From Nitrospirota bacterium (GTDB lineage: Bacteria > Nitrospirota > Thermodesulfovibrionia > Thermodesulfovibrionales > Magnetobacteriaceae): a stretch of DNA of 40,500 bases. The notes under the pieces are model-generated. The model saw only the letters and a program-made list of their open reading frames with translations, made no database searches and was not told the DNA's origin. A program made the position numbers and the translations under genes. Position 1 is the stretch's first letter, and the number at the start of each line of letters is the position of its first letter. The DNA lies in the NCBI GenBank assembly GCA_015233685.1, contig JADFXF010000002.1:1-40500 (forward strand), in the 5' to 3' direction. This document shows, piece after piece, positions 20,355 through 35,105 of the stretch.

Positions 20355-21467
20355 TTATTTCCAGCTTATCGCTAAAGCGTACGAAGTACCATTATAATAA
20401 GTATATATATATCCATCTGTCCATGCTACAATGGCAGAACCGTTGGTAAACCATTGGATGTAGTATGTGGCTGAACCGGATGTGTATGCAGCTATGCTTC
20501 CTGATGGTGTTCCAAAGAACGAAGAGTATTGATTGTATATTGCAGTAATCTCTGCGGCTGCCCTGGCAATGTTGCTCCATGCTACCCCTAAAGCGTACGA
20601 AATACCATTATAATAAGTATATATATATCCATCTGTCCATGCTACAATGGCAGAACCATTGGTAAACCATTGGATGTAGTATGTGGCTGAACCGGATGTG
20701 TATGCAGTTATGCTTCCTGATGGTGTTCCAAAGAACGAGGAGTATTGATTATATACCGCGTTAATCCACTTACTTGCGGTAGTGTTGTCCGATGACCCTG
20801 ATGATGTAAATGTCGCCGTTACTGTAATGCTGGTATTCGATGTCAGTGTACACGTCCCCGTTCCTGAACAACCCGCACCTGACCATCCGGCAAATGTTGA
20901 GCCAATGCCTGGCGTTGCGGTCAGGGTAGTAGCGATTGGTGGTGTATATGAAGCCGAACAAACGCTTCCACAGTTGATTTTGCCATCGGAGCTTGTTACA
21001 GTGCCGCTGCCTGTGCCAGATGGCGCAATTACCAAATTGACCGGATTACTGTTTCCACTCGATGCACTCCATGTTCCACTTTTTGTAATCCCCTTGCCAC
21101 AAAAAGCATACGTTTCGCCAAAGTTCCAAGTCCCTGAAGCGGTGCTTGAGCTGCTAAAGCTGCCTGTTACTGAAAGTTCCCAGGTCGTTGGACTACCAAC
21201 ATTGAAAGAGAATTTACCCCCTGAAATACCGACACCTGGGGTAAATACATAGTTGTCGGTAGGACTACAAGTACCGCCGCCATAAGAACTTAATGGTACA
21301 TCAAATTCGGTTACAGCATCACCGGCAACCTTAAAGCTTATCCTTATTCCATCGTTTGTTGTTCCTGACCAACTGCCATCATAAGCCGAGGCATTGGTGT
21401 AAGTCGCCATCAGCGTAATAACAAATACAACTACCAATATACCGAATAGTTTTTTAGCTTTAAACAT
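20355..21467 (-). CDS. Exported repeat protein with two copies of a 72-residue TYYIQWF module
   Basis: The 370-residue protein starts with a signal peptide (positive N-terminus, hydrophobic stretch, ANA/SAY region around 25-28). An N-terminal Gly/Ser-rich domain (about 30-140) of unknown type follows. Next comes a bacterial-repeat unit (about 145-225) with Cys pairs INCGSVC and GAGCSGTGTC and the LTATP-F-GWSG pattern. Two tandem modules of 72 residues end the protein, each with IYNQYSSFFGTPSGS and TYYIQWFTNGSAIVAWTDGY. The same modules occur in the protein at 31947-35105. There is no sorting signal or catalytic motif that I recognise. A strong AAAGGGGG site precedes ATG 21467. A surface or periplasmic binding role is possible but only inferred. 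Confidence 0.85.
   Translation of the reverse strand: MFKAKKLFGILVVVFVITLMATYTNASAYDGSWSGTTNDGIRISFKVAGDAVTEFDVPLSSYGGGTCSPTDNYVFTPGVGISGGKFSFNVGSPTTWELSVTGSFSSSSTASGTWNFGETYAFCGKGITKSGTWSASSGNSNPVNLVIAPSGTGSGTVTSSDGKINCGSVCSASYTPPIATTLTATPGIGSTFAGWSGAGCSGTGTCTLTSNTSITVTATFTSSGSSDNTTASKWINAVYNQYSSFFGTPSGSITAYTSGSATYYIQWFTNGSAIVAWTDGYIYTYYNGISYALGVAWSNIARAAAEITAIYNQYSSFFGTPSGSIAAYTSGSATYYIQWFTNGSAIVAWTDGYIYTYYNGTSYALAISWK
20374..20750 (-). repeat. 216-base tandem duplication inside the exported repeat gene
   Basis: The stretch 20374-20534 recurs at 20590-20750, exactly 216 bases (72 codons) later. By eye only four of about 161 bases differ. The duplication encodes the two C-terminal modules. 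Such identity means that it is recent or is kept uniform by recombination, unlike the diverged copies in the larger relative. Confidence 0.9.
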
Positions 21468-22815: not shown

Positions 22816-22851
22816 TAGAAATGTCCTTTTTTTGGCAAAATAGAAATGTCC
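22816..22851 (+). repeat. Paired TAGAAATGTCC motifs, possible insertion-sequence end remnant
   Basis: TAGAAATGTCC occurs at 22816-22826 and 22841-22851, with AAAGTAGAA and AAAATAGAA contexts, 25 bases apart in the same direction. Repeated motifs of this kind are familiar from the ends of IS21-like elements. No transposase gene is present, so if the reading is right only a solo end remains, just upstream of the radical SAM operon. Confidence 0.35.
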
Positions 22852-22912: not shown

Positions 22913-24289
22913 ATGAGAAAAGTTCTCTTGATCTCAGTTAATAACGAAAGGCTGCCATATCCAGTTGCCCCAATCGGGGCCGCTTATATCGCCGGAGCAC
23001 TCGCAACGGCCGGCCTTGACGTTAAAATCCTCGATTTGTGTTTTGTTGACGACGATTTACAGGCACTGAAAGACTCAATCGGTGGCTTTAACCCCGACGT
23101 TATAGGCGTCTCTATCAGAAACGTTGATAATCTTACCTACAATCGAAGCGTGTTCTATATGCCCAGAATTCGGGACATTGTGAACTTTATCAGGACGATT
23201 AGCAATGCCCCGGTGGTTGTCGGTGGCTCAGGGTTTTCCCTTTTCCCCGAGGAAATCCTGCGATATCTAACGCTCGATTTTGGAGTTGCGGGCGAGGGAG
23301 AACAGGCGTTTCTCAGTCTTATCAGGGCATTTGAAAACGGTGGCAATATTGATGAGATCCCAAACCTGTCAATTATTAAAAACGGCTCGTTCCATCAGAA
23401 TCCCGTCTCATACAGCCCTGTGATGTGTCTGCCAGACAGGGCGGTTCTTAACAATGCCGCGTATCTTCAATACGGCGGGATGGGGAATGTTCAATCCAAG
23501 CGCGGCTGCCCGTTTAAGTGCACATACTGTACGTATCCCATGCTGGAGGGGACCCGCCTGAGGCTCAGGCCCCCGGAGGAGATAGTCGCGGAACTTGCCG
23601 AAATGAAAGACAGGCACGCAATAGATTACGTGTTTTTCGTGGATGATATATTTAACGTCCCGGCCGGACATTCAATTCAGATATGTGAGGGAATTATCAG
23701 AAAGAATCTGAGAATTAAGTGGACGTGTTTCGCAACCCCATTCAGTTTTACCGAAGAGCTGGCAAGGCTTATGAAACGGGCCGGTTGTACCGGCATAGAG
23801 TTCGGCTCAGACGCCGGTGCCACCCAAACACTTAACGCCTATGAGAAACACTTCACGCCGGACGATATAGCGGCGGCCTCCGCCATATGCCGAAAGATTG
23901 ACATGCCCGACGCACATTATATTATAATTGGCGGCCCGTCTGAAACAGAGGAGACACTGAATGAGACATTTAAACTGTTTGATATGATAAAGCCGCGCGC
24001 TGTAATCGCCCTTGTTGGCGTGAGGATATACCCCGGTACGGCTATCTGCAAAAGGGCGGTGCAAGACGGCGTCATACCGGCGGTCCCGGAAGGAAAGGGG
24101 CTGCTTGAGCCGGTGTTTTATCTGAGTCCGGAGACACCGTCAGGGCTGCTGCTCACGCGGGTTGCCACATGGGCAGAAGGTAGGGCAAACCGTGTAGTGC
24201 CTGCCCTTGATATCCACTATGACGCCTCAACGCTGGGTGCTATCAGAAAGATAATTAAACGCGGCCCAATGTGGGACGTGTTAAGATGA
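22913..24289 (+). CDS. B12-binding-domain radical SAM enzyme
   Basis: The 458-residue protein has an N-terminal cobalamin-binding-like Rossmann domain (about 1-140; PVAPIGAAYIAGAL, GGSGFSLFPEEIL, GEGEQAF). The radical SAM domain follows with the cluster motif C199-x3-C203-x2-C206 (KRGCPFKCTYC). This class methylates or rearranges unactivated carbons using SAM and often B12; substrates range from lipids to antibiotics. Its stop overlaps the ATG of the reductase gene (ATGA), so the product is made with the FabG, ACP and FabZ homologues that follow. An acyl-ACP or lipid substrate is therefore likely, by context only. Upstream lies the TAGAAATGTCC pair. Confidence 0.87.
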   Translation: MRKVLLISVNNERLPYPVAPIGAAYIAGALATAGLDVKILDLCFVDDDLQALKDSIGGFNPDVIGVSIRNVDNLTYNRSVFYMPRIRDIVNFIRTISNAPVVVGGSGFSLFPEEILRYLTLDFGVAGEGEQAFLSLIRAFENGGNIDEIPNLSIIKNGSFHQNPVSYSPVMCLPDRAVLNNAAYLQYGGMGNVQSKRGCPFKCTYCTYPMLEGTRLRLRPPEEIVAELAEMKDRHAIDYVFFVDDIFNVPAGHSIQICEGIIRKNLRIKWTCFATPFSFTEELARLMKRAGCTGIEFGSDAGATQTLNAYEKHFTPDDIAAASAICRKIDMPDAHYIIIGGPSETEETLNETFKLFDMIKPRAVIALVGVRIYPGTAICKRAVQDGVIPAVPEGKGLLEPVFYLSPETPSGLLLTRVATWAEGRANRVVPALDIHYDASTLGAIRKIIKRGPMWDVLR

Positions 24290-25032
24290 AGGAAGCGGCG
24301 GTAAATCATACCGTGGCCGTGGTAACAGGAGGAGGTAAGGGTATTGGGGGCGCTATATGCAGGGTGCTTACGAAGGATGGCTCTTCTGTGGTAATCAACT
24401 ATATGTCATCATCCAATGAGGCCGCGGCGCTGTGTGAGGAGCTGCGCGCGATAAATCCCAATACAATGGTCTATCAGGCTGATGTCACAGATTTCTCACA
24501 GATGAAAAAGATGATGGACGACACTGTAGCCCTGTTTGGCCGCGTGGATATCCTCGTCAACAATGCCGGCCTTGCCAGAGACGGACTTCTCCTGCTGATG
24601 CCGGAAAAGGACTGGATGGACGTTATGGATGTAAACCTGACAGGGGTTTTTAACGCGTCAAAGTCGGTACTACCACACATGATAGCCCAAAGGAGCGGTG
24701 TTATAATAAATATCTCATCTTTAAGCGGGATAGACGGCCTTGCCGGGCAGGTCAACTATGCGGCGGCCAAGGGGGGTGTGATTGCCCTGACGAGGGCGCT
24801 CTCAAAGGAGCTTGCACAGTTTGGCATCAGGGTAAACGCGGTTGCCCCGGGCGCTATTGAGACCGATATGCTGGATACTATGAAGGATACCGCGCGTGAG
24901 GATTTACGCCGTAACATTCCACTGAGGCGATTTGGAAGGCCAGAGGAGGTTGCCTCTGTGGTCAGGTTTCTCGCCTCTGAGGAGGCCGGATATATCACGG
25001 GTGAGGTTATTTCTGTAACGGGAGGATTATAA
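24286..25032 (+). CDS. fabG: 3-oxoacyl-ACP reductase (FabG-like short-chain dehydrogenase)
   Basis: FabG reduces 3-oxoacyl-ACP with NADPH. The protein has the cofactor motif TGGGKGIGG, the NNAG element (VNNAGLARDG) and the catalytic Ser/Tyr/Lys (NISSLSG, then YAAAK). The C-terminal GRPEEVA and GYITGEVISVTGGL segments are typical of FabG. I choose ATG 24286, whose ATGA overlaps the upstream stop; a start at 24271 would add five residues. It is probably a paralogue dedicated to this operon rather than the main fatty-acid enzyme, because no fabF, fabD or fabH is adjacent. Confidence 0.9.
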   Translation: MKEAAVNHTVAVVTGGGKGIGGAICRVLTKDGSSVVINYMSSSNEAAALCEELRAINPNTMVYQADVTDFSQMKKMMDDTVALFGRVDILVNNAGLARDGLLLLMPEKDWMDVMDVNLTGVFNASKSVLPHMIAQRSGVIINISSLSGIDGLAGQVNYAAAKGGVIALTRALSKELAQFGIRVNAVAPGAIETDMLDTMKDTAREDLRRNIPLRRFGRPEEVASVVRFLASEEAGYITGEVISVTGGL

Positions 25033-25038
25033 GAGCGC

Positions 25039-25299
25039 ATGTCAGACACATTTGAAAGACTAAAGGGATTGCTTGTCAGCAGGTTAAAACTCTCCGTAGG
25101 GGAGGAAGTAATTAACAGGGATACGACACTATTTGGCCCCGGCGGGCTGGGGCTGGACTCCATTGATGTCCTGGAGCTTGTCGTGGGCATAAAAAAAGAA
25201 TTCGGCGTTGACATTACAGACAGGGAAACCGCGGAGAAAATCTTTACATCAGTCGGCGCAATAGTGGGATACATAGATGAACAAAGAAGAACTCGTTAA
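25039..25299 (+). CDS. Acyl carrier protein
   Basis: The 86-residue protein has the helical acidic build of ACPs and the phosphopantetheine attachment serine S41 in GLGLDSIDVLEL. It tethers acyl chains for the flanking reductase and dehydratase. The sequence differs from the usual housekeeping AcpP (longer N-terminus, GPGGLGLDS in place of the common LGADSLD), in line with a specialised carrier. Its 3' end overlaps the next gene by 23 bases. The acpS gene that activates carriers lies at the right edge of the window. Confidence 0.9.
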   Translation: MSDTFERLKGLLVSRLKLSVGEEVINRDTTLFGPGGLGLDSIDVLELVVGIKKEFGVDITDRETAEKIFTSVGAIVGYIDEQRRTR

Positions 25300-25723
25300 A
25301 CGGCTGCCGCACGGCGCGCCCTTTATATTCATTGAGAAGGTGCTGGGCATAGACAAGGGGCAGCGTATCAAGGCATTGAAGACCGTCACGGGCGGCGAAG
25401 AGGCCATCAACCGGGGCGGCGATGGACAGCAGTCATTTCCATTCGTGCTGCTTGTAGAGGCAATGGCCCAGGCCTCAGGGCTTGTCCTTGAGGCTGAGGA
25501 AATTGAGATGGCGTTTCTGACGATGATTAACGACGCGCACCATGTCAAACCCGCGATGGCGGGCGATGTCCTCATCATAGAGTCTGAGCTGACAAAGAAG
25601 TTCCCACCATTATACGTCTTCCGGGCAAAGGTCAGCGTTGACGGGGAGATCGTCTCCTCGGCTGAGATAACACTAACCTCTGTTCCCAGGTCCGCCACCA
25701 GCAGGCGTCGGGCGCGGCCATAG
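25277..25723 (+). CDS. 3-hydroxyacyl-ACP dehydratase (FabZ/FabA-like hot-dog fold)
   Basis: The 148-residue protein has the FabZ pattern LPHGAPFIFIEKV, with the active-site histidine, and FPFVLLVEAMAQASG, with the catalytic glutamate on the central helix. It would dehydrate 3-hydroxyacyl chains made by the neighbouring reductase. The C-terminus is basic (RRRARP). It is slightly divergent from housekeeping FabZ (G for R/Y after the H, FPF in place of FPG), as expected for a pathway-specific version. It ends the operon; a convergent epimerase gene stops five bases later. Confidence 0.85.
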   Translation: MNKEELVKRLPHGAPFIFIEKVLGIDKGQRIKALKTVTGGEEAINRGGDGQQSFPFVLLVEAMAQASGLVLEAEEIEMAFLTMINDAHHVKPAMAGDVLIIESELTKKFPPLYVFRAKVSVDGEIVSSAEITLTSVPRSATSRRRARP

Positions 25724-27002: not shown

Positions 27003-28598
27003 TTAGTGCGCCTTTACGGTTGTGTCCGCCGGTTTGCCATACTCATAAGGCCCATCGGTAATTGTGGGAATTTGCTCGAAATTGTAAAACGGTGGTGGCG
27101 ATGGAATCTGCCACTCAAGCGAGAGTGAGTTCCACGGATTGGCCGGTGCCTTCTCTCCCTTTATCGCCGAATGGACGAAGTTATAAAGGGTCATGAGAAA
27201 TCCTGCGATAGTGATATAGGAGAATATTACGGCAATTCTCATCTCTCCGGCGTACTGCGACGGCAACTTCCAGTACCTTCTTGGAATGCCGTCATAGCCG
27301 AGGTGAAACTGTGGCAGAAAGGCAATCATAGCCCCAATGAGGGTTATCCAAAATGCCGTCTTGCCGAGCTTTTCGTTGTACATCTTGCCGGTAAACTTAG
27401 GGAACCAGTAGTATATCGCGCCCATGCACAACATGGACATGCTTATTGCCAGCACGTAGTGGAAATGCGCCACGACCCAGTGCGTGTCATGTACCTGAAT
27501 GTCAAAGCCGAGCAGTCCGTTTGCTATGCCGGTAACTCCGCCAATCGTAAACAAGGATATAAACCCAAGGGCGTGAAGCATAGGGGTTTTTAAGTCTATT
27601 GAACCCTTGTGCAACGTCGCCAGCCAGTTAAATGTCTTAATGCCGGTCGGTACTCCAATTGCAATCGTACCCCACATAAACACTACCCTTGTCCAGTTTA
27701 GGGTACCGGCGACATACAGGTGATGTACCCAAGTCTCAAACCCCACGACTGTGATTATCATTATGGCAATAGCCATGCTGGTGTAGCCATAAATCCTCTT
27801 TCTTGAAAAAGTCGAGATTATGTCCGACACTATGCCAAACACCGGAAGCGCTACCACATAAACCGCCGGATGGGCGTAAAACCAGAACAGATGCTCATAG
27901 AGAATCGGACTTCCACCCTTAGTGCCGTCATAAAAACTCGTCCCAAGGTACTTGTCAAAAAGCAGCAGGGTAACCGCGGCGGCCAGTACCGGAACGCCTA
28001 CGAGCTGTATGATAAACCCTCCGAAAAGTCCCCACACCGTGAGGTTCAGCCTTCCCCAAGTCATCCCCGGCGCCCTTAGTGTGATTATCGTCGTGATGAA
28101 ATTAACCGCGCCGGCAATACTTGATGCCCCGAGCAGATGCACCGCAAATACATAAAACGCGGTATTGGCCGGGCCTACGATTGAATAGGGCGGATAACCT
28201 GTCCAGCCGGTGTCAAGCCTTCCCGGCAGTATAAGCGCCATAACCGCTATCAATCCCGCCCCAACATACAGCCAGAAGCTGAGGGCGTTGAGCCGCGGAA
28301 AGGCAACATCGTGCGCGCCTATCATCAGGGGTATCATATAGTTGGCAAGAAACCCAAGCAGCACCGGTATCATCCAAAACAGCACCATTGCCGCGCCGTG
28401 AATCGTAAAGGCCGTGTTGTAGAGGTCGGCGTCAATTATCACTTTTTTGGTAATATCAAGCTGCTCCGTTCTCATTATAAACGCCAGAAGCAACCCCACT
28501 ACGAAAAACACCAGCGATGTGACCAGATACATAACCCCAATCTTCTTATGGTCTGTCGTCAGAAGCCACGACTTAAACCCAGTAGGTTGTGTACTCAT
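27003..28598 (-). CDS. ctaD: Cytochrome c oxidase subunit I (haem-copper oxidase, A-type)
   Basis: This 531-residue integral membrane subunit holds the low-spin haem and the haem/CuB centre that reduces oxygen. Ligands are visible: H67 (TIHGAA), CuB H243 (YAHPAVY, with cross-linked Y247) and H292-H293 (WVHHLY), and haem ligands H378 and H380 (VAHFHYVL). The K-channel lysine K321 (VPTGIKTFNWLATL) is kept. In the D-channel the usual Glu of HPEVY is Ala245, and the segment reads YAHPAV, so the enzyme resembles the A2 group (YSHPxV) with Ser replaced by Ala. It lies last in the cox operon, 14 bases after subunit II. Confidence 0.95.
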   Translation of the reverse strand: MSTQPTGFKSWLLTTDHKKIGVMYLVTSLVFFVVGLLLAFIMRTEQLDITKKVIIDADLYNTAFTIHGAAMVLFWMIPVLLGFLANYMIPLMIGAHDVAFPRLNALSFWLYVGAGLIAVMALILPGRLDTGWTGYPPYSIVGPANTAFYVFAVHLLGASSIAGAVNFITTIITLRAPGMTWGRLNLTVWGLFGGFIIQLVGVPVLAAAVTLLLFDKYLGTSFYDGTKGGSPILYEHLFWFYAHPAVYVVALPVFGIVSDIISTFSRKRIYGYTSMAIAIMIITVVGFETWVHHLYVAGTLNWTRVVFMWGTIAIGVPTGIKTFNWLATLHKGSIDLKTPMLHALGFISLFTIGGVTGIANGLLGFDIQVHDTHWVVAHFHYVLAISMSMLCMGAIYYWFPKFTGKMYNEKLGKTAFWITLIGAMIAFLPQFHLGYDGIPRRYWKLPSQYAGEMRIAVIFSYITIAGFLMTLYNFVHSAIKGEKAPANPWNSLSLEWQIPSPPPFYNFEQIPTITDGPYEYGKPADTTVKAH

Positions 28599-28612
28599 AT
28601 TTTTAGCCTCCT

Positions 28613-29596
28613 TTATTTTAATGTGTTTATGTAAGCCGCGATAGCTTCATATTCTTCTTTGGCCAGTGCGTTGGGGGGCATTATGTGGCCGAACCCCTTT
28701 ACCGGCTTTGCCTTCGGGTCTGCTATTTTCTCTTTGACGAATGCCTCGTCAATGACGACTTTCGTGCCGTCTTCCAGTTCCTGGGACTTTCCTATGACGC
28801 CGTTTAAGGCAGGGCCAGCCTTTATCTCACCAGCTATACCGTGGCAGCCAAGGCAGCCAAGCCGCTCGACAAGCTCCTTGCCCTTTGTCTCAGGCGTGAG
28901 GGCAGCCACTGTTGTGCCTTCGCCCTTTTGCTTCTTAACCCACGCGTCGTAGTCCTCTTGTTTCATCACAATAACCTTTGCAAGCATAGACGAATGCCCT
29001 GAGCCGCAATACTCCGCGCAATAAACCGGATACTCCCCCGGTTCCTTTGCCGAAAACCAGAGATACGTATTCTCGCCCGGAACCATGTCCTCTCGGGTTC
29101 TAAAGGCCGGCAGGGCAAAATCGTGTATCACGTCCTTGCTTGAAAGATTTACCTTTACGTTGCCCACAGGTACGCGCAGTTCGTTTATTGTCTTAATCCC
29201 CTCAGGGGAGTACATCTCAAAGCCGTACATAAAACCAACCGCCTTGACCTCGATATGGTCCTTTGGCACGTCTCTCAGATCATTAAAGACCGCCCACGAC
29301 TGAACTCCGAGCATAATGATTATTATCATCGGAACTATCGTCCACAGAATTTCAAGGGCGGTGTTTCCCACTATGTATGCTCCGGTTTCGTCCTTGTGCC
29401 TTCTCTTGTATTTAAATACGAAGTATATGAGCGGCACAGTAACTACCAGGTAAACGACTATTGACACCACCGCCCACGTCTTAAAGTGATTGTTCCACGC
29501 CTTGACCGGGTCAGCCACTCTTTCGGCTGCCGCTGCCGCATATGGCAGCGACACAAACAGCGCAGCCGTTAATAATCTCACCATTTGCTTTAGCAT
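28613..29596 (-). CDS. ctaC: Cytochrome c oxidase subunit II with fused cytochrome c domain
   Basis: Subunit II passes electrons to subunit I. The 327-residue protein has a signal peptide, two transmembrane helices (about 40-95), a cupredoxin domain with the CuA site (CAEYCGSGHSSM) and a C-terminal cytochrome c domain with CLGCHG and a distal methionine in GHIMPP. Such caa3-type fusion lets a soluble cytochrome c donate directly. It follows SCO, which inserts CuA copper, after 18 bases. Confidence 0.95.
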   Translation of the reverse strand: MLKQMVRLLTAALFVSLPYAAAAAERVADPVKAWNNHFKTWAVVSIVVYLVVTVPLIYFVFKYKRRHKDETGAYIVGNTALEILWTIVPMIIIIMLGVQSWAVFNDLRDVPKDHIEVKAVGFMYGFEMYSPEGIKTINELRVPVGNVKVNLSSKDVIHDFALPAFRTREDMVPGENTYLWFSAKEPGEYPVYCAEYCGSGHSSMLAKVIVMKQEDYDAWVKKQKGEGTTVAALTPETKGKELVERLGCLGCHGIAGEIKAGPALNGVIGKSQELEDGTKVVIDEAFVKEKIADPKAKPVKGFGHIMPPNALAKEEYEAIAAYINTLK

Positions 29597-29614
29597 CTTC
29601 TACCTCCTGATTTT

Positions 29615-30454
29615 TTAAGGGCTGAGTACTTCAGCCCGTCTTTGCTTTTTCAACTTCCTTGAGTATAAGAAAACTATTACCGCCGTAAAAATAGCGAATA
29701 CGAATCCTATAGTTTCAAGGATGAAGATCATGTTTATCCTGTAGCCGCCAATCTTTGTGTCATAAGTATAACACGCAAGGGCAACTTTGCCTACCACAGG
29801 GAACTTGCCGACTTTGCCGTCCGCGGCCTCAATCAGCGCCAGTCTTACGTCCATTGAGAGCGGATAGAGGCCGAACAGGTACCTCATAACCTTACCCTCC
29901 GGAGACAGAAATATATACACGTTTGGATGCACGAAGACCTTGTCCAGCGTCGAATAAAAAAACCTGTAACCGATGGCGTCTGTAAATCTTTTGGCCTCCG
30001 CGTCAGTCGTTACGGCAAACACCCATTTATCGAAGGACTCGGGCAGGGTGCCCTTCATCTTAATCCGCAGGTCATTGCGGAATTTCTGCGCGTCCGCCGG
30101 TGTTTCCCTGCCGTCGAAACTCAGCGTTATTACGTTGTAATCCTCGCCAAGCCTTAGTTTAGCGTCCTTCAGGGCGGTGGCCAGTCCCTCGTTCAGCACA
30201 GGGCACGACTGGGCGCACCTATAGTATATTATGGACAGGATAAACGGTTTTCCAGCGTATTTACTGAGGGTTATGGCGTTGCCCTTGTCATCGGTCATGC
30301 TGATGTTCGGTGCCGTTTTGCCCAGATAGTCGTCCTCTTTTATCTTCAGCACAGACGGGTCAAACTGAGTTGAATCGGCTGATGGCCCAAAACCCCACGC
30401 ATGAGTGGCGGCCAATAAGCACACGATTAACAAGATACGCGCTGCTTCTTTCAT
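29615..30454 (-). CDS. SCO1/SenC-type copper chaperone
   Basis: SCO proteins deliver copper to the CuA site of subunit II. The 279-residue protein has an N-terminal signal or anchor helix (about 5-20), a thioredoxin-like domain with YYRCAQSCPV (CxxxC) and a conserved histidine in VFVHPNVY. A further hydrophobic helix near the C-terminus (about 243-268) anchors it in the membrane. Its start overlaps the subunit III stop by four bases (ATGA). Position between subunits III and II supports a role in assembly. Confidence 0.9.
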   Translation of the reverse strand: MKEAARILLIVCLLAATHAWGFGPSADSTQFDPSVLKIKEDDYLGKTAPNISMTDDKGNAITLSKYAGKPFILSIIYYRCAQSCPVLNEGLATALKDAKLRLGEDYNVITLSFDGRETPADAQKFRNDLRIKMKGTLPESFDKWVFAVTTDAEAKRFTDAIGYRFFYSTLDKVFVHPNVYIFLSPEGKVMRYLFGLYPLSMDVRLALIEAADGKVGKFPVVGKVALACYTYDTKIGGYRINMIFILETIGFVFAIFTAVIVFLYSRKLKKQRRAEVLSP

Positions 30455-31254
30455 TGCCCTGCCTTAAGATACGGAACCACATATATCAACGACACGACCA
30501 AAAGCCAGACTATATCAACAAAGTGCCAATATAACCCTGTCACCTTCACCATTGTCTGGCGGTTCTTGCCGATTTTAGCGCCAGCCGCCAGAATCATACA
30601 AAATATCTGCATCAAAAGGCCGACGATGACGTGTGAACCGTGAAACCCCGTGATGGTGTAGAAAAACGTCCCATATTCATTCGTGCGGACGGTAAAGTTT
30701 TTCTCGGCTATCAACTCATGCCATTCGTAGGCCATGAACGCCATAAAGAGGGCGCCTAAAATCGTTGTCATTACCAGCCAGCCTTTGAATCCCCCCATGT
30801 CGCCATGAGCTAACTTCTCCTCGGCGTTATGTATGGTAAAACTCGACGAAAGGAGGAAAATTGTCATTAACACCGCAAGGCCGATAGGCGGCACGCCTTC
30901 GGGGGTGTTGGCCGGAGGCCATAGGTCTGTAAACAGCATGGCATACAAGTACCCGCCAAACAGCCCGCCAAACAGCGCAACCTCCGATACTATGAACACT
31001 ATTATCGCTAGTTTGCTTAACCCCGCATCCTCCTTTTTGGCGTGTACCTCGTTAAGCCACCCGAAAAGCCCAACAATCAATACCACTACCGCCACCCCGG
31101 CAAGCACAAGCCCCACTGAGGACAAACCCCACGAGAACGCCGTCATAAACGATATAGGTATCAGAAACGCCCCTACCGCCGTTATCAACGGCCATACGCT
31201 TAGCTCTACCTGGTGGTGTACCGCTTTTGTTCCACCGTGCATGACATTTTCCAT
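30451..31254 (-). CDS. ctaE: Cytochrome c oxidase subunit III
   Basis: The 267-residue protein is hydrophobic with about seven transmembrane segments. FTIHNAEEKLAHGD, FYTITGFHGSHVIVG and GLYWHFVDIVWLLVVSLIYV are the standard family segments, including the conserved HxxH-like and WHFVD elements. It stabilises subunit I and is not itself a redox carrier. It is the first structural gene after the Rrf2 regulator. Confidence 0.94.
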   Translation of the reverse strand: MENVMHGGTKAVHHQVELSVWPLITAVGAFLIPISFMTAFSWGLSSVGLVLAGVAVVVLIVGLFGWLNEVHAKKEDAGLSKLAIIVFIVSEVALFGGLFGGYLYAMLFTDLWPPANTPEGVPPIGLAVLMTIFLLSSSFTIHNAEEKLAHGDMGGFKGWLVMTTILGALFMAFMAYEWHELIAEKNFTVRTNEYGTFFYTITGFHGSHVIVGLLMQIFCMILAAGAKIGKNRQTMVKVTGLYWHFVDIVWLLVVSLIYVVPYLKAGQ

Positions 31255-31277
31255 TTCTTAGCCCCTCCTGATTGTTA

Positions 31278-31718
31278 TTATTGCACTCCTGATGGAGTTT
31301 TGCCTGTGACACTGTTTTCATATTTTTTTGCCAGTGTTGCGAAGTCAATTTGTTTTAACCGCTGTTGCACCATCTGTTTTATCTCAAGCCAGATGGGAAA
31401 TGTTGGACAATCCTGCATCAACTCACACCTGCCCTCTTCCGTTGTACACTTGTTTATCACTATTTTCCCGCTTATGGCCTCAACCACATCAAGTACGGTT
31501 ATGTCGCATGGGGCTTTTGTCAGGACAAACCCGCCTTTTGCCCCTCTGATTGACTCTACAATACCGCCCTTTGTCAGTTTTTGCAGTATCTTTGCCAGAA
31601 AACTCGCCGGTATGAGCTTCTCTTTAGCTATCTCACTAATGACAAAGGTTTTTTCCGGATTTCCCGACATAAACAATATACACCTCACCGCATAGTCCGT
31701 ATCTCTGTTAATTACCAA
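31278..31718 (-). CDS. Rrf2-family transcriptional regulator
   Basis: The 146-residue protein has the Rrf2 winged helix (DTDYAVRCILFM, then SFLAKILQKLTKGGIVESIRGAKGGFVL) and three cysteines in KCTTEEGRCELMQDCPTF that match the iron-sulfur ligands of sensing members such as IscR, RsrR or NsrR. It would sense iron-sulfur status, nitric oxide or redox state and regulate the oxidase operon just downstream (23 bases). The start is a TTG at 31718 preceded by GGTGG; the usual family start is M-x-L-T-x-x-x-Y-A. Which signal it senses cannot be told from sequence. Confidence 0.88.
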   Translation of the reverse strand: MVINRDTDYAVRCILFMSGNPEKTFVISEIAKEKLIPASFLAKILQKLTKGGIVESIRGAKGGFVLTKAPCDITVLDVVEAISGKIVINKCTTEEGRCELMQDCPTFPIWLEIKQMVQQRLKQIDFATLAKKYENSVTGKTPSGVQ

Positions 31719-31878: not shown

Positions 31879-31946
31879 ACATACGTGAGGGTGTGCGTTA
31901 AAACGAGGCTGTGTTTGTACGTATGTGTACATATGGAGGGGCAGAG

Positions 31947-34900
31947 ATGGTAACGCCGCGGCATAATATGAGAACACTTCAGATGTCAAAATATAATGTG
32001 TGTTGTTCGGCCCTGCGCGTGTTGCTGTTGTGTGGTGTAATGGTGTCGGTTGTGATATTCATAGCGGCGGATGCGTTTGGCTACACAGACCTTTGCGGCT
32101 ATACATGGACACAGCACAAGAATATCGGACTGGGATCGAATAACTATGGACAGGGATATTGGTGGAGGGTAGCTGCGTCAGATAATGGGACTAGCCTCGC
32201 CGCGATAGAATATGGGGGATATATTTATACGTCAGGCGACGGTGGTGACAATTGGACAAAACAGACAACCGCCGGACAGAGGCCCTGGTACTCAATTACG
32301 TCGTCTGCTGATGGAAGCCGCCTTGCCGCCGTTGACAGTGATGGTTCTTATTCAGGACATGTTTGGACTTCGAATGATTATGGCGTTTCATGGACCAAGG
32401 ATAATATCACTCAGGCCAGCATAGTGCCCCACAGTTTTAACTGGGTGGCTATAGCCTCGTCAGCCAGTGGGGCAGCCCTGCATGCCCTGGATTACGATGG
32501 CAATGTTTTTAACGGCGTATCGGCAGACGGTGGCAACTGGACCTGGACTGAAACCGACAATACCACATTCATTTGTACCTCGACGATACCCCGCTGCCAA
32601 TTTTACTCAATAGCGGTGTCACGCAATGGAAGCATCGTAGTTATCGGCACTACAAACGAATTTCTTTATGAATCGTCTGACGGCGGTACGACATGGGTAA
32701 GAGATGTTGAAACTACCGATGAGGCGAAGCGATACTGGTGGGGCCTGGCGAGGCCTTTGATTTTGAACAATGCCGTTGCGGTATTCGGTGTGGATGGCGT
32801 TGGGGGGAATGTTGTACCTGAGGACGATGAAACACACATAGCTAACATGGGCAGCACAAACCTGACATCTATCTCATGGTCTGATTATCTTGATGAGAAT
32901 GCCGGTGCTCAATTATATTTCACCGTTACCGATTTTGGTTTTGGCGGCTCTGGCGGGTATATTTATACGACGCCTACATACAACACGACCAATGGTTTCG
33001 GCATATGGTCAAAGGAAACCAACTTGTTTGACAAGGACAACACAACCAAAAACGTCAGCAAACAACAGTGGTCTTCAATTGTGGCAGGGACACAAAATGA
33101 TGAGATCAGGCTTGCCGCCACTACTTTTGGGGGATATATCTATACCCGCACACAAAACCATCCATCTTATCCTGTTGTCATTGACAATGGTACCGGCACC
33201 GGCAGAGGGACAGTGTACTCCTCATCCGGCCCTATAGTCTGGGGTCCGCCGTCTTCAACCAGCACCAATGTCGGCACTGCTATCTATAATTGCCCCAACT
33301 ACATAACTCTGACGGCTATCCCAAACACTGTCGGCAACGACGAGTTTGATGGCTGGGTAGGGTGTGATAACACAACAAGCGGTGCGAAATGCACCCTGAT
33401 GATGACGTCGGTTAAGAATATTGCCGCCGTATTTGGCAATGCCAGGACAGACCATGTAATGACTGTGGCCGTAACGACTGACAACGGCACGGTAACGAGC
33501 AGCCCCACTGGAATCAACTGCAGCGGGGCGGGAAGTTCCTGCAATTCCAATTTCCCCGATAATTATACGGTAACACTTACGGCAACACCGGACACGGGTT
33601 ATTATGCGAGTTGGACAGGGTGTGATAACGCAACCGGTTACCAATGTTTTGTTACAATGTTATCAAACAAATCCGTATCGGTGGCGTTTGCGGCTGCTGC
33701 CTTTTCTTATTCCCTTAGTGTCAGCGAAACTGGAACTGGCACAGGGACAATTACAAGTTCTCCATCGGGGATAAGCTGCGGTGCCAACTGCTCTTTCACC
33801 TATACCTCCGGCACGTCTGTAACGCTTACGGCAACGCCTGACTCCGGCAGTAGTTTTTTAAGCTGGACAGGGTGTGATTCTACAAACGGCTCTCAGTGTA
33901 CGGTTGTGGTGTCGGCGAATAGATCCGTATCAGCGGCATTTTTGGCGGGGCAGTTGTCTTATACATTGTCTGTGGCAAAGACCGGAGTGGGTACAGGGAC
34001 AGTTGCGAGTTCCCCGTCGGGGATAAGCTGCGGTTCTGTTTGTTATAGCTCTTTTGCCGTCGGCACATCCGTAATTCTCTCGGCAGTGCCTGACGCCGGG
34101 TTTAGTTTATCAGGCTGGACGGGGTGTGATAGCACAAGCAGTTCACTATGCACTGTTGCAATATCATCGAATAAAACCGTGGCGGCGGCATTTTCGCAAT
34201 CAGCCGAGTTTGGCACTGCCTCGTCAGGCCTCAGCTCTGTATACAGTCAATACGCTACTTTGTTTGGCGCTAAATCAGGTAGTGTAACGGTAGGGACATC
34301 GGCGGGCGGGACGTACTATATCCAATGGTTTACCAATGGTACGGCCATAATAGCGTGGTCTGATGGGTATATATATTACTACCCCGGCAGCGGTTCGTCA
34401 ATGTCTATGGGAATTACATGGAAAACAACGAGTGACTCTGCCCTGGCGGCCATGTGGATTAGCTCGTTTTATAATCAATACACGTCATTTTTTGGCACGG
34501 CCTCAGGTGGAGTGACGGCTGGTGCGTCAGTAGGCGGGACGTACTATATCCAATGGTATGCCAATGGTTCGGCAATAATAGCGTGGACTGATGGATACAT
34601 GTATTTCTATTATGGCGGCAACTCGTACCCTTTTAATATGCCATGGAAAACCATCAGCACCGCTGATAAGGCAAGCGCGGGGATTAGTAAAGTATATAGC
34701 CCATATGCCTCTTATTTTGGCGCTGTATCCGGAGGCCTAGTCACCGTGTCATCATGGAACGGCACATACTACATCCAATGGTTTGCAAATGGAACTGCCC
34801 TCCTGGCGGGGGCGGATGGATATGTTTACGCCTTTGATGGAACAAATTGGTACAGCTCAGGGGTTACGTGGCAGACAACCACCCCCTATGATAAGGCAAG

Positions 34901-35105
34901 CTCGAAGATAAATTCCCTTTATACCTTGTCCAGCGGATATTTTGGCATGAAATACGGCATCATAACCGGCGGAGCAATGCCAATCGGGACATACTATATG
35001 CAGTGGTTTATGAATGGTACGGCAATAATAGCGTGGACTGATGGGAATATGTACTATATTGACAGCACCGGAATCTGGCACTCTTTTGGGACGACATGGA
35101 AATAG
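31947..35105 (+). CDS. Large exported protein: Asp-box repeats, bacterial repeats and four TYYIQWF modules
   Basis: ATG 31947 follows GGAGGGG and gives 1,052 residues; an upstream GTG at 31911 has no ribosome site. A signal or anchor segment (about residues 20-45) comes first. Residues up to about 400 hold Asp-box-like repeats (SGDGGDNWTK, SNDYGVSWTK, SSDGGTTWVR), as in sialidase-type beta-propellers. Then come about four bacterial-repeat units, roughly 80 residues each, with paired cysteines and the LTATPDSGSSF--WTGCD pattern. Four C-terminal modules of about 72 residues share TYYIQWF-NG-AI-AW-DGY. The modules match those at 20355-21467. I see no catalytic motif or cell-wall anchor. It is likely secreted or on the surface; the role is unknown. 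It ends WK and a TAG, inside the repeat that flanks the following mobile element. Confidence 0.85.
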   Translation: MVTPRHNMRTLQMSKYNVCCSALRVLLLCGVMVSVVIFIAADAFGYTDLCGYTWTQHKNIGLGSNNYGQGYWWRVAASDNGTSLAAIEYGGYIYTSGDGGDNWTKQTTAGQRPWYSITSSADGSRLAAVDSDGSYSGHVWTSNDYGVSWTKDNITQASIVPHSFNWVAIASSASGAALHALDYDGNVFNGVSADGGNWTWTETDNTTFICTSTIPRCQFYSIAVSRNGSIVVIGTTNEFLYESSDGGTTWVRDVETTDEAKRYWWGLARPLILNNAVAVFGVDGVGGNVVPEDDETHIANMGSTNLTSISWSDYLDENAGAQLYFTVTDFGFGGSGGYIYTTPTYNTTNGFGIWSKETNLFDKDNTTKNVSKQQWSSIVAGTQNDEIRLAATTFGGYIYTRTQNHPSYPVVIDNGTGTGRGTVYSSSGPIVWGPPSSTSTNVGTAIYNCPNYITLTAIPNTVGNDEFDGWVGCDNTTSGAKCTLMMTSVKNIAAVFGNARTDHVMTVAVTTDNGTVTSSPTGINCSGAGSSCNSNFPDNYTVTLTATPDTGYYASWTGCDNATGYQCFVTMLSNKSVSVAFAAAAFSYSLSVSETGTGTGTITSSPSGISCGANCSFTYTSGTSVTLTATPDSGSSFLSWTGCDSTNGSQCTVVVSANRSVSAAFLAGQLSYTLSVAKTGVGTGTVASSPSGISCGSVCYSSFAVGTSVILSAVPDAGFSLSGWTGCDSTSSSLCTVAISSNKTVAAAFSQSAEFGTASSGLSSVYSQYATLFGAKSGSVTVGTSAGGTYYIQWFTNGTAIIAWSDGYIYYYPGSGSSMSMGITWKTTSDSALAAMWISSFYNQYTSFFGTASGGVTAGASVGGTYYIQWYANGSAIIAWTDGYMYFYYGGNSYPFNMPWKTISTADKASAGISKVYSPYASYFGAVSGGLVTVSSWNGTYYIQWFANGTALLAGADGYVYAFDGTNWYSSGVTWQTTTPYDKASSKINSLYTLSSGYFGMKYGIITGGAMPIGTYYMQWFMNGTAIIAWTDGNMYYIDSTGIWHSFGTTWK

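Follow-up and report, generated by a model that had tools for sequence, protein, structure and literature searches.

A four-gene operon in the window

What can a radical SAM protein, a ketoreductase, an acyl carrier protein (ACP) and a FabZ-like protein do together when no condensing enzyme is encoded beside them? The question is raised by a locus in the genome of a Nitrospirota bacterium (G000; 2.03 Mb), on a stretch of 40,500 nucleotides that we analysed as a whole and refer to as the window. A sequence-only reading had described four tightly packed genes here, and the open reading frame (ORF) list and translations, the Pfam and NCBIfam matches and the gene overlaps confirmed this description, with all four genes on the same strand (Table 1). 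The FabG gene starts at the ATG at 24286 and overlaps the stop codon of the radical SAM gene in a 4-bp ATGA; an alternative GTG at 24271 is the mechanical start of the ORF. A gap of 6 bp separates the FabG and ACP genes, and the ACP and FabZ genes overlap by 23 bp.

Table 1. Coordinates of the features discussed in the text (window positions unless another contig or locus is named).
Feature	Position	Strand	Evidence	Kuenenia orthologue
Secreted-looking protein, repeat unit	20355-21467	-
Tandem AGAAATGTCC, two copies	22817..22851	+
B12-binding radical SAM protein, TIGR04072 rSAM_ladder_B12	22913..24289	+	Pfam, NCBIfam; orthologue by position	kuste3342
FabG-type SDR ketoreductase	24286..25032	+	Pfam, NCBIfam, motifs	kuste3341
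Acyl carrier protein (ACP)	25039..25299	+	Pfam PP-binding	kuste3340
FabZ-like hotdog protein without GHF catalytic His	25277..25723	+	Pfam FabA, alignment, model	kuste3339
Cytochrome c oxidase-like genes	27003-31718	-	ORF translations
Secreted-looking protein, repeat unit	31911-35105	+
KS396; 337-aa ketosynthase-like protein; methyltransferase; KS391; 189-aa ketosynthase-like fragment protein (KSx189); FlxY-like acyl ligase	contig C38, 12174-18403	-
Radical-SAM-rich locus on contig C68	L013, 7985-13688

The FabG protein matched Pfam adh_short_C2, and its NNAG and Ser/YxxxK motifs are present; on the NCBIfam FabG equivalog TIGR01830 it scored 294.5 bits, slightly under the cut-off of 297.75. 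The ACP carries its attachment residue, Ser41, within GLDSID, and is 63-69% identical to the ACPs of the nearest full clusters described below. Neither a ketosynthase nor an acyltransferase came to light when the ORFs of the window were read and the operon and its neighbours were analysed with Pfam. The order radical SAM, FabG, ACP, FabZ was repeated in the loci L081 and L083 (75-98% identity) and in distant phyla. This recurrence, together with dN/dS values of 0.07-0.24, indicates that the operon is more than a chance arrangement. Dispersal of the genes in relatives would have counted against the sequence-only reading; they stay together, except that FabG and ACP have been lost in the genus mate G134.

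Upstream of the operon, two copies of AGAAATGTCC start 25 bp apart, where 0.09 would be expected, and this tandem is possibly a regulatory site or the remnant of a mobile element. The 11-mer TAGAAATGTCC had a single occurrence, in L074, among the fetched loci other than those holding the window stretch. The genes beside the operon look like those of a cytochrome c oxidase operon that also encodes an SCO-like protein and a regulator resembling Rrf2; such an operon is an unusual neighbour for an oxygen-sensitive radical SAM operon. A repeat unit about 60 residues long (YNQYSSFFGTPSG...YYIQWFTNGSAIIAWTDGYIYYY) is shared by two secreted-looking proteins of the window; Pfam gave only a sub-threshold InlB-type repeat for the smaller of them, which is encoded on the minus strand.

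The radical SAM protein

The radical SAM protein scored 412.4 bits, over nearly its full length, on TIGR04072 (cut-off 360), a model that NCBIfam places under "lipid biosynthesis". The Pfam domains B12-binding (PF02310) and Radical_SAM (PF04055) were both found above their cut-offs, and the iron-sulfur motif CxxxCxxC reads CPFKCTYC at residue 199. The predicted structure (mean pLDDT 87.7) was nearest to TsrM, followed by MgmA, AprD4, OxsB and CysS. Methylases dominate these fold relatives; the ring contraction by OxsB and the dehydration by AprD4 are precedents for other radical steps. TsrM (6WTE), a cobalamin-dependent radical SAM tryptophan methyltransferase, is the best solved relative by both profile and predicted fold, but it is only about 22-23% identical in the fold alignment and its substrate is tryptophan. 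For the window protein we prefer C-methylation, or the forming of a ring or C-C bond, on an ACP-bound chain. Radical modification of an ACP-bound lipid by methylation or ring formation, as put forward earlier, is still the best reading.

In a tree of radical SAM proteins built by a quick method, the five sequences of the window genus formed a clade. Around it lies a 16-row group with a support of 94, made up of Nitrospirota and Brocadiales sequences and of one long-branched deltaproteobacterial sequence (L099), whose placement is unsure; this group in turn sits in a wider one of 27 rows, to which Myxococcota-labelled loci and further deltaproteobacterial ones belong. The TIGR04072 members that score around 600 bits form a separate clade, whereas the window protein belongs to the Nitrospirota/anammox/deltaproteobacterial one. 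Horizontal transfer between Planctomycetota and Nitrospirota is likely. No literature on TIGR04072 was found among open-access papers.

Several other radical SAM loci were encountered. In Nitrospirota (L079, L051 and related loci), members of the 600-bit clade have a cluster of their own, in which two radical SAM genes lie side by side and FabF-type enzymes and an ACP are also encoded. Radical SAM genes are numerous on contig C68 of the window genome, but this contig lies outside the cluster; besides glycosyltransferases, its locus encodes a protein distantly related to TIGR04072 (251 bits), and matches of comparable strength are present in genus and family mates that lack the window cluster. 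A TIGR04072-like paralogue that anammox genomes commonly carry (L218-L222), and that is widespread in the Brocadia family, was set aside because its surroundings are unrelated; it lies next to a thiolase/CHS-like gene, of 366-383 aa in L218, L220 and L221, and the two are possibly a type III PKS pair. As the Kuenenia orthologue, kuste2803 was first considered and was replaced by kuste3342 on the basis of cluster order.

A FabZ-like protein that has lost its catalytic histidine

A catalytic histidine is required in FabZ. On alignment of the four FabZ proteins from the genus, the GHFxxNPxMPG segment was found to be a variable loop in every one (NRGGDGQQSFPF in the window protein), and the glutamate of EAMAQ (Glu61) is kept. 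Outside the genus, GH is kept in 10 of 11 FabZ relatives, the exception being L055, which has GR. The AlphaFold model of the window protein is a hotdog fold, with low confidence at the variable loop, and matches FabZ structures including that of the anammox amxFabZ. Canonical and amxFabZ dehydratases (6N3P, 8AYB-8AYI) share this fold and the EAMAQ glutamate, but they keep the GHF histidine where the window protein has the loop. A structure of an amxFabZ His48 mutant exists (8AYI, H48N), and the making of this mutant shows that His48 was regarded as catalytic. With the GHF histidine gone, dehydration by the window FabZ is doubtful, and the protein, judged from its sequence, probably does not perform it. 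Dehydration had been among the functions credited to the set.

The ketosynthase half of the cluster lies on a second contig

The absence of a ketosynthase holds for the window but not for the genome, in which two ketosynthase pairs, a methyltransferase and an acyl ligase are encoded on contig C38 (Table 1). The 337-aa ketosynthase-like protein is devoid of active-site motifs. The methyltransferase is homologous over nearly its full length (281 bits) to AmxMT1 (8HD2), a Brocadia fulgida protein for which binding to an anammox ACP has been shown (PMC9821293); here the methyltransferase is encoded on a contig separate from that of the window radical SAM gene, and its orthologue is missing in the genus mates G134 and G400.

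The 189-aa protein was used as a marker for this half. Strong matches (at least 285 bits; next best 57) were found in 5 of 396 genomes of the phylum, and the same five carry the window subtype of the radical SAM protein. The chance of such a co-occurrence is about 1e-11, a figure that ignores shared ancestry. The split into two loci is genuine, since the flanks at both sites are conserved in genus mates: an epimerase gene downstream of the four genes is common to the window, G134 (L082) and MYbin6 (L083), and the C38 half has the same DUF218-type and OYE-like genes as flanks in G134 (L215). An assembly artefact is ruled out, as both loci lie inside contigs with the same flanks in genus mates.

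Elsewhere, in other Nitrospirota, in Planctomycetota (including Kuenenia, Brocadia and Jettenia) and in "Deltaproteobacteria", one long operon joins the genes of the window block to two ketosynthase/ketosynthase-like pairs, to methyltransferase and acyl ligase genes and, as a rule, to others. The succession of ketosynthase, ketosynthase-like, methyltransferase, ketosynthase, ketosynthase-like, ligase and SPASM radical SAM genes was observed in Nitrospirota (L054, L055, L087 and, with no methyltransferase, L076) and in Planctomycetota (L084, L089, L105, L216 and L217), and in most full-cluster loci the radical SAM-FabG-ACP-FabZ block comes next. In L054, L055 and L076 the ketosynthase genes are followed by the SPASM radical SAM gene and then by the B12-binding one (55-58% identity). 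L054 and L055 continue with FabG, ACP, FabZ, a second methyltransferase, an MMPL protein, a CrtI-like oxidoreductase and a GT2 gene; L054, whose cluster is about 17 kb long, has an extra small gene amid the FabG-ACP-FabZ stretch, and the 3' end of L076 is cut off. This gene order indicates that the window block is the detached second half of a longer operon. The nearest named loci outside Nitrospirota were those of Brocadia, Jettenia and Planctomycetes GWA2_39_15; synteny was near-complete in L084, L089 and L105, and L085 starts inside the cluster.

The full operon corresponds gene for gene, read in reverse, to kuste3335-3352, a candidate cluster for ladderane synthesis in Kuenenia stuttgartiensis (Rattray 2009, PMC2649909; Javidpour 2016, PMC4790861), the gene functions of which are tabulated in PMC4790861 (Table 2). 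The four window genes match their Kuenenia counterparts in the same order, and the ketosynthases, the AmxMT1-type methyltransferase and the ligase are matched on C38. However, what is one cluster in Kuenenia is split over two contigs here and its FabZ histidine is lost, and orthologues of the SPASM radical SAM, CrtI-like and MMPL proteins of such clusters were not found in the window genus. Since the amxFabZ of genome G418 shows 100% identity over the aligned stretch of 8AYD, a K. stuttgartiensis structure, we take G418 to be Kuenenia and L217 to be its cluster; L217 shows the same gene order, with a 66-aa ORF where kuste3350 (66 aa) is expected. The cluster type is already known from anammox bacteria, and the split and reduced form in a Nitrospirota genus is new.

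The four genes could instead work alone on chains from the housekeeping fatty acid synthase, the ketosynthase genes on C38 belonging to a separate pathway. Their own site, with the same downstream epimerase gene in genus mates, would fit this, as would the retention in G134 of the radical SAM and FabZ genes without FabG, ACP and the first ketosynthase pair. However, all five genomes that have one half have the other half too, and both halves are one operon in the full clusters, which makes this alternative unlikely. The earlier proposal that the set is fed by the main fatty acid system is not supported, as the genes belong to a cluster that brings ketosynthase pairs itself and whose two halves co-occur perfectly.

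The make-up of the cluster also raises the alternative of an exported aryl-polyene or flexirubin-like pigment. The model nearest to the ligase is FlxY (432.8 bits; cut-off 520), while FabG reaches 265.7 bits on FlxB (cut-off 340); ketosynthase/ketosynthase-like pairs with a FabG and no enoyl reductase suit polyene synthesis, and the full clusters include an MMPL protein. However, both flexirubin models stay under their NCBIfam cut-offs, aryl starter genes were not seen in the examined clusters, the MMPL protein was not found in the window genus and the FabZ has lost its catalytic histidine. We regard a pigment as distinctly unlikely.

Reduction and selection within the genus

The cluster is reduced to different extents within the genus. 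In G134 (99% complete), one site is left with the radical SAM and FabZ genes alone and the other with KS391, the 189-aa protein and the ligase. A search of the rest of its genome for KS396, the 337-aa protein, the methyltransferase and the ACP gave no close homologue, taken as one above 49% identity. Five genes present in the window genome, FabG and ACP among them, have been lost in G134. In G400, KS396 and the 337-aa protein are followed directly by KS391, with no methyltransferase between them. Orthologues of the SPASM radical SAM protein, of the desaturase-like CrtI-like protein and of the MMPL exporter were not found in G000 (65% complete), G134 or G400, where the best matches are 25-37% identical, the best long ones 25-30%, and orthologues would be expected at 50-70%.

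Between members of the genus, dN/dS was 0.12-0.18 for the radical SAM gene, 0.10-0.12 for FabG, 0.07-0.11 for ACP, 0.125-0.24 for FabZ and 0.08-0.11 for the KS391, 189-aa protein and ligase genes. These low values indicate that the genes are maintained by purifying selection. A locus that is decaying and no longer functional in the window genus might be suspected from the split, the five losses in G134, the missing FabZ histidine and the SPASM, CrtI-like and MMPL genes not found; however, the ORFs are all intact and the genes tested are under the constraint just described, and we consider decay quite improbable.

Distribution of the cluster and the ladderane question

Genomes were counted as anammox here by the presence of hydrazine synthase (HZS; PF18582). 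The cluster radical SAM protein was found in 7 of 33 Brocadia-family genomes (at least 705 bits; next 381) and the cluster methyltransferase in six, the seventh locus being cut off by a contig end. Both proteins were missing from five HZS-positive genomes (G403, G405, G408, G420 and G422), in three of which the relevant contig is near genome size. All five have amxFabZ, in two pieces in G408, as do 12 of 12 Brocadia-family genomes checked. The cluster is carried by G399, Nitrospirota and "Deltaproteobacteria"; hydrazine synthase had no match in G399 or in the incomplete genome G000, and no close amxFabZ homologue was found in the latter (64.65% complete). Desulfotalea has similar clusters, yet no ladderanes have been found in it (Rattray 2009, PMC2649909). 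In a limited search of open-access papers we found no earlier report of a patchy distribution of kuste3335-3352 among anammox bacteria; nor did we find open-access papers on ladderanes with Geobacter clusters, or on the combination of cobalamin, radical SAM, ACP and polyene.

The likeness to ladderane clusters noted in the sequence-only reading is borne out by the orthologues and their order, but the distribution argues against a ladderane product. Were the cluster to make ladderane (linearly fused cyclobutane) lipids, also in the window genus, the radical SAM protein would drive a cyclisation cascade; the gene-for-gene match to a cluster proposed for ladderanes, and the binding of an anammox ACP by its AmxMT1, are in keeping with this. 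However, the cluster is absent from five HZS genomes that have amxFabZ and is present in non-anammox bacteria, in Nitrospirota and "Deltaproteobacteria", including a window genome in which neither HZS nor a close amxFabZ homologue was found. Desaturase-like or SPASM radical SAM orthologues were not found in the window genus either, and a ladderane product is therefore very improbable. It is likewise very improbable that this non-anammox genus makes a ladderane-like or other ring-bearing lipid with the split cluster, its His-less FabZ sharing in radical cyclisation of the ACP-bound chain.

Proposed working of the split cluster

We consider it likely that the four genes supply the carrier, reductase and radical functions of a FAS II-like lipid cluster of the kuste3335-3352 type, of which they make up one half, and that in the window genus this cluster was divided between two loci and reduced. 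The data show the gene content and order, the orthology, the split, the co-occurrence, the selection and the loss of the catalytic residue; for the reactions, substrates and product of the split cluster we infer the following. The acyl ligase on C38 would load a starter acid; the active KS396 and KS391, each with a ketosynthase-like partner lacking catalytic residues, would extend the chain on the dedicated ACP; and FabG would reduce the 3-keto group, these steps being drawn from knowledge of the protein families. The B12-binding radical SAM protein would then modify the ACP-bound chain, most likely by C-methylation or by forming a C-C bond or ring, in each case at a carbon that is not activated. 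Possible roles of the His-less FabZ are to hold, protect or pass on an intermediate; alternatively, the main fatty acid synthase may supply the dehydration. With the cluster split, the chain-building enzymes encoded elsewhere and a key residue of the dehydratase lost, the product in the window genus is probably a modified lipid other than ladderanes. Kuenenia genes expressed in E. coli yielded no new lipid (PMC4790861), which counts against the scheme, as does the incompleteness of the window genome. Nor can the scheme be essential as a whole across the genus, as G134 keeps only the radical SAM protein, FabZ, KS391, KSx189 and the ligase.

The biosynthesis of ladderanes in anammox bacteria is a long-open question, and kuste3335-3352 is among the candidate clusters. 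Clusters of this type are neither confined to anammox-type genomes nor universal in them, and this patchy distribution argues for another lipid product and turns the focus to other candidates, for example the amxFabZ locus. The split and reduced versions in Nitrospirota suggest that the core consists of the radical SAM protein, the FabZ-like protein, the KS391 pair and the ligase, with the other parts dispensable; with so small a core, function could be tested with few genes.
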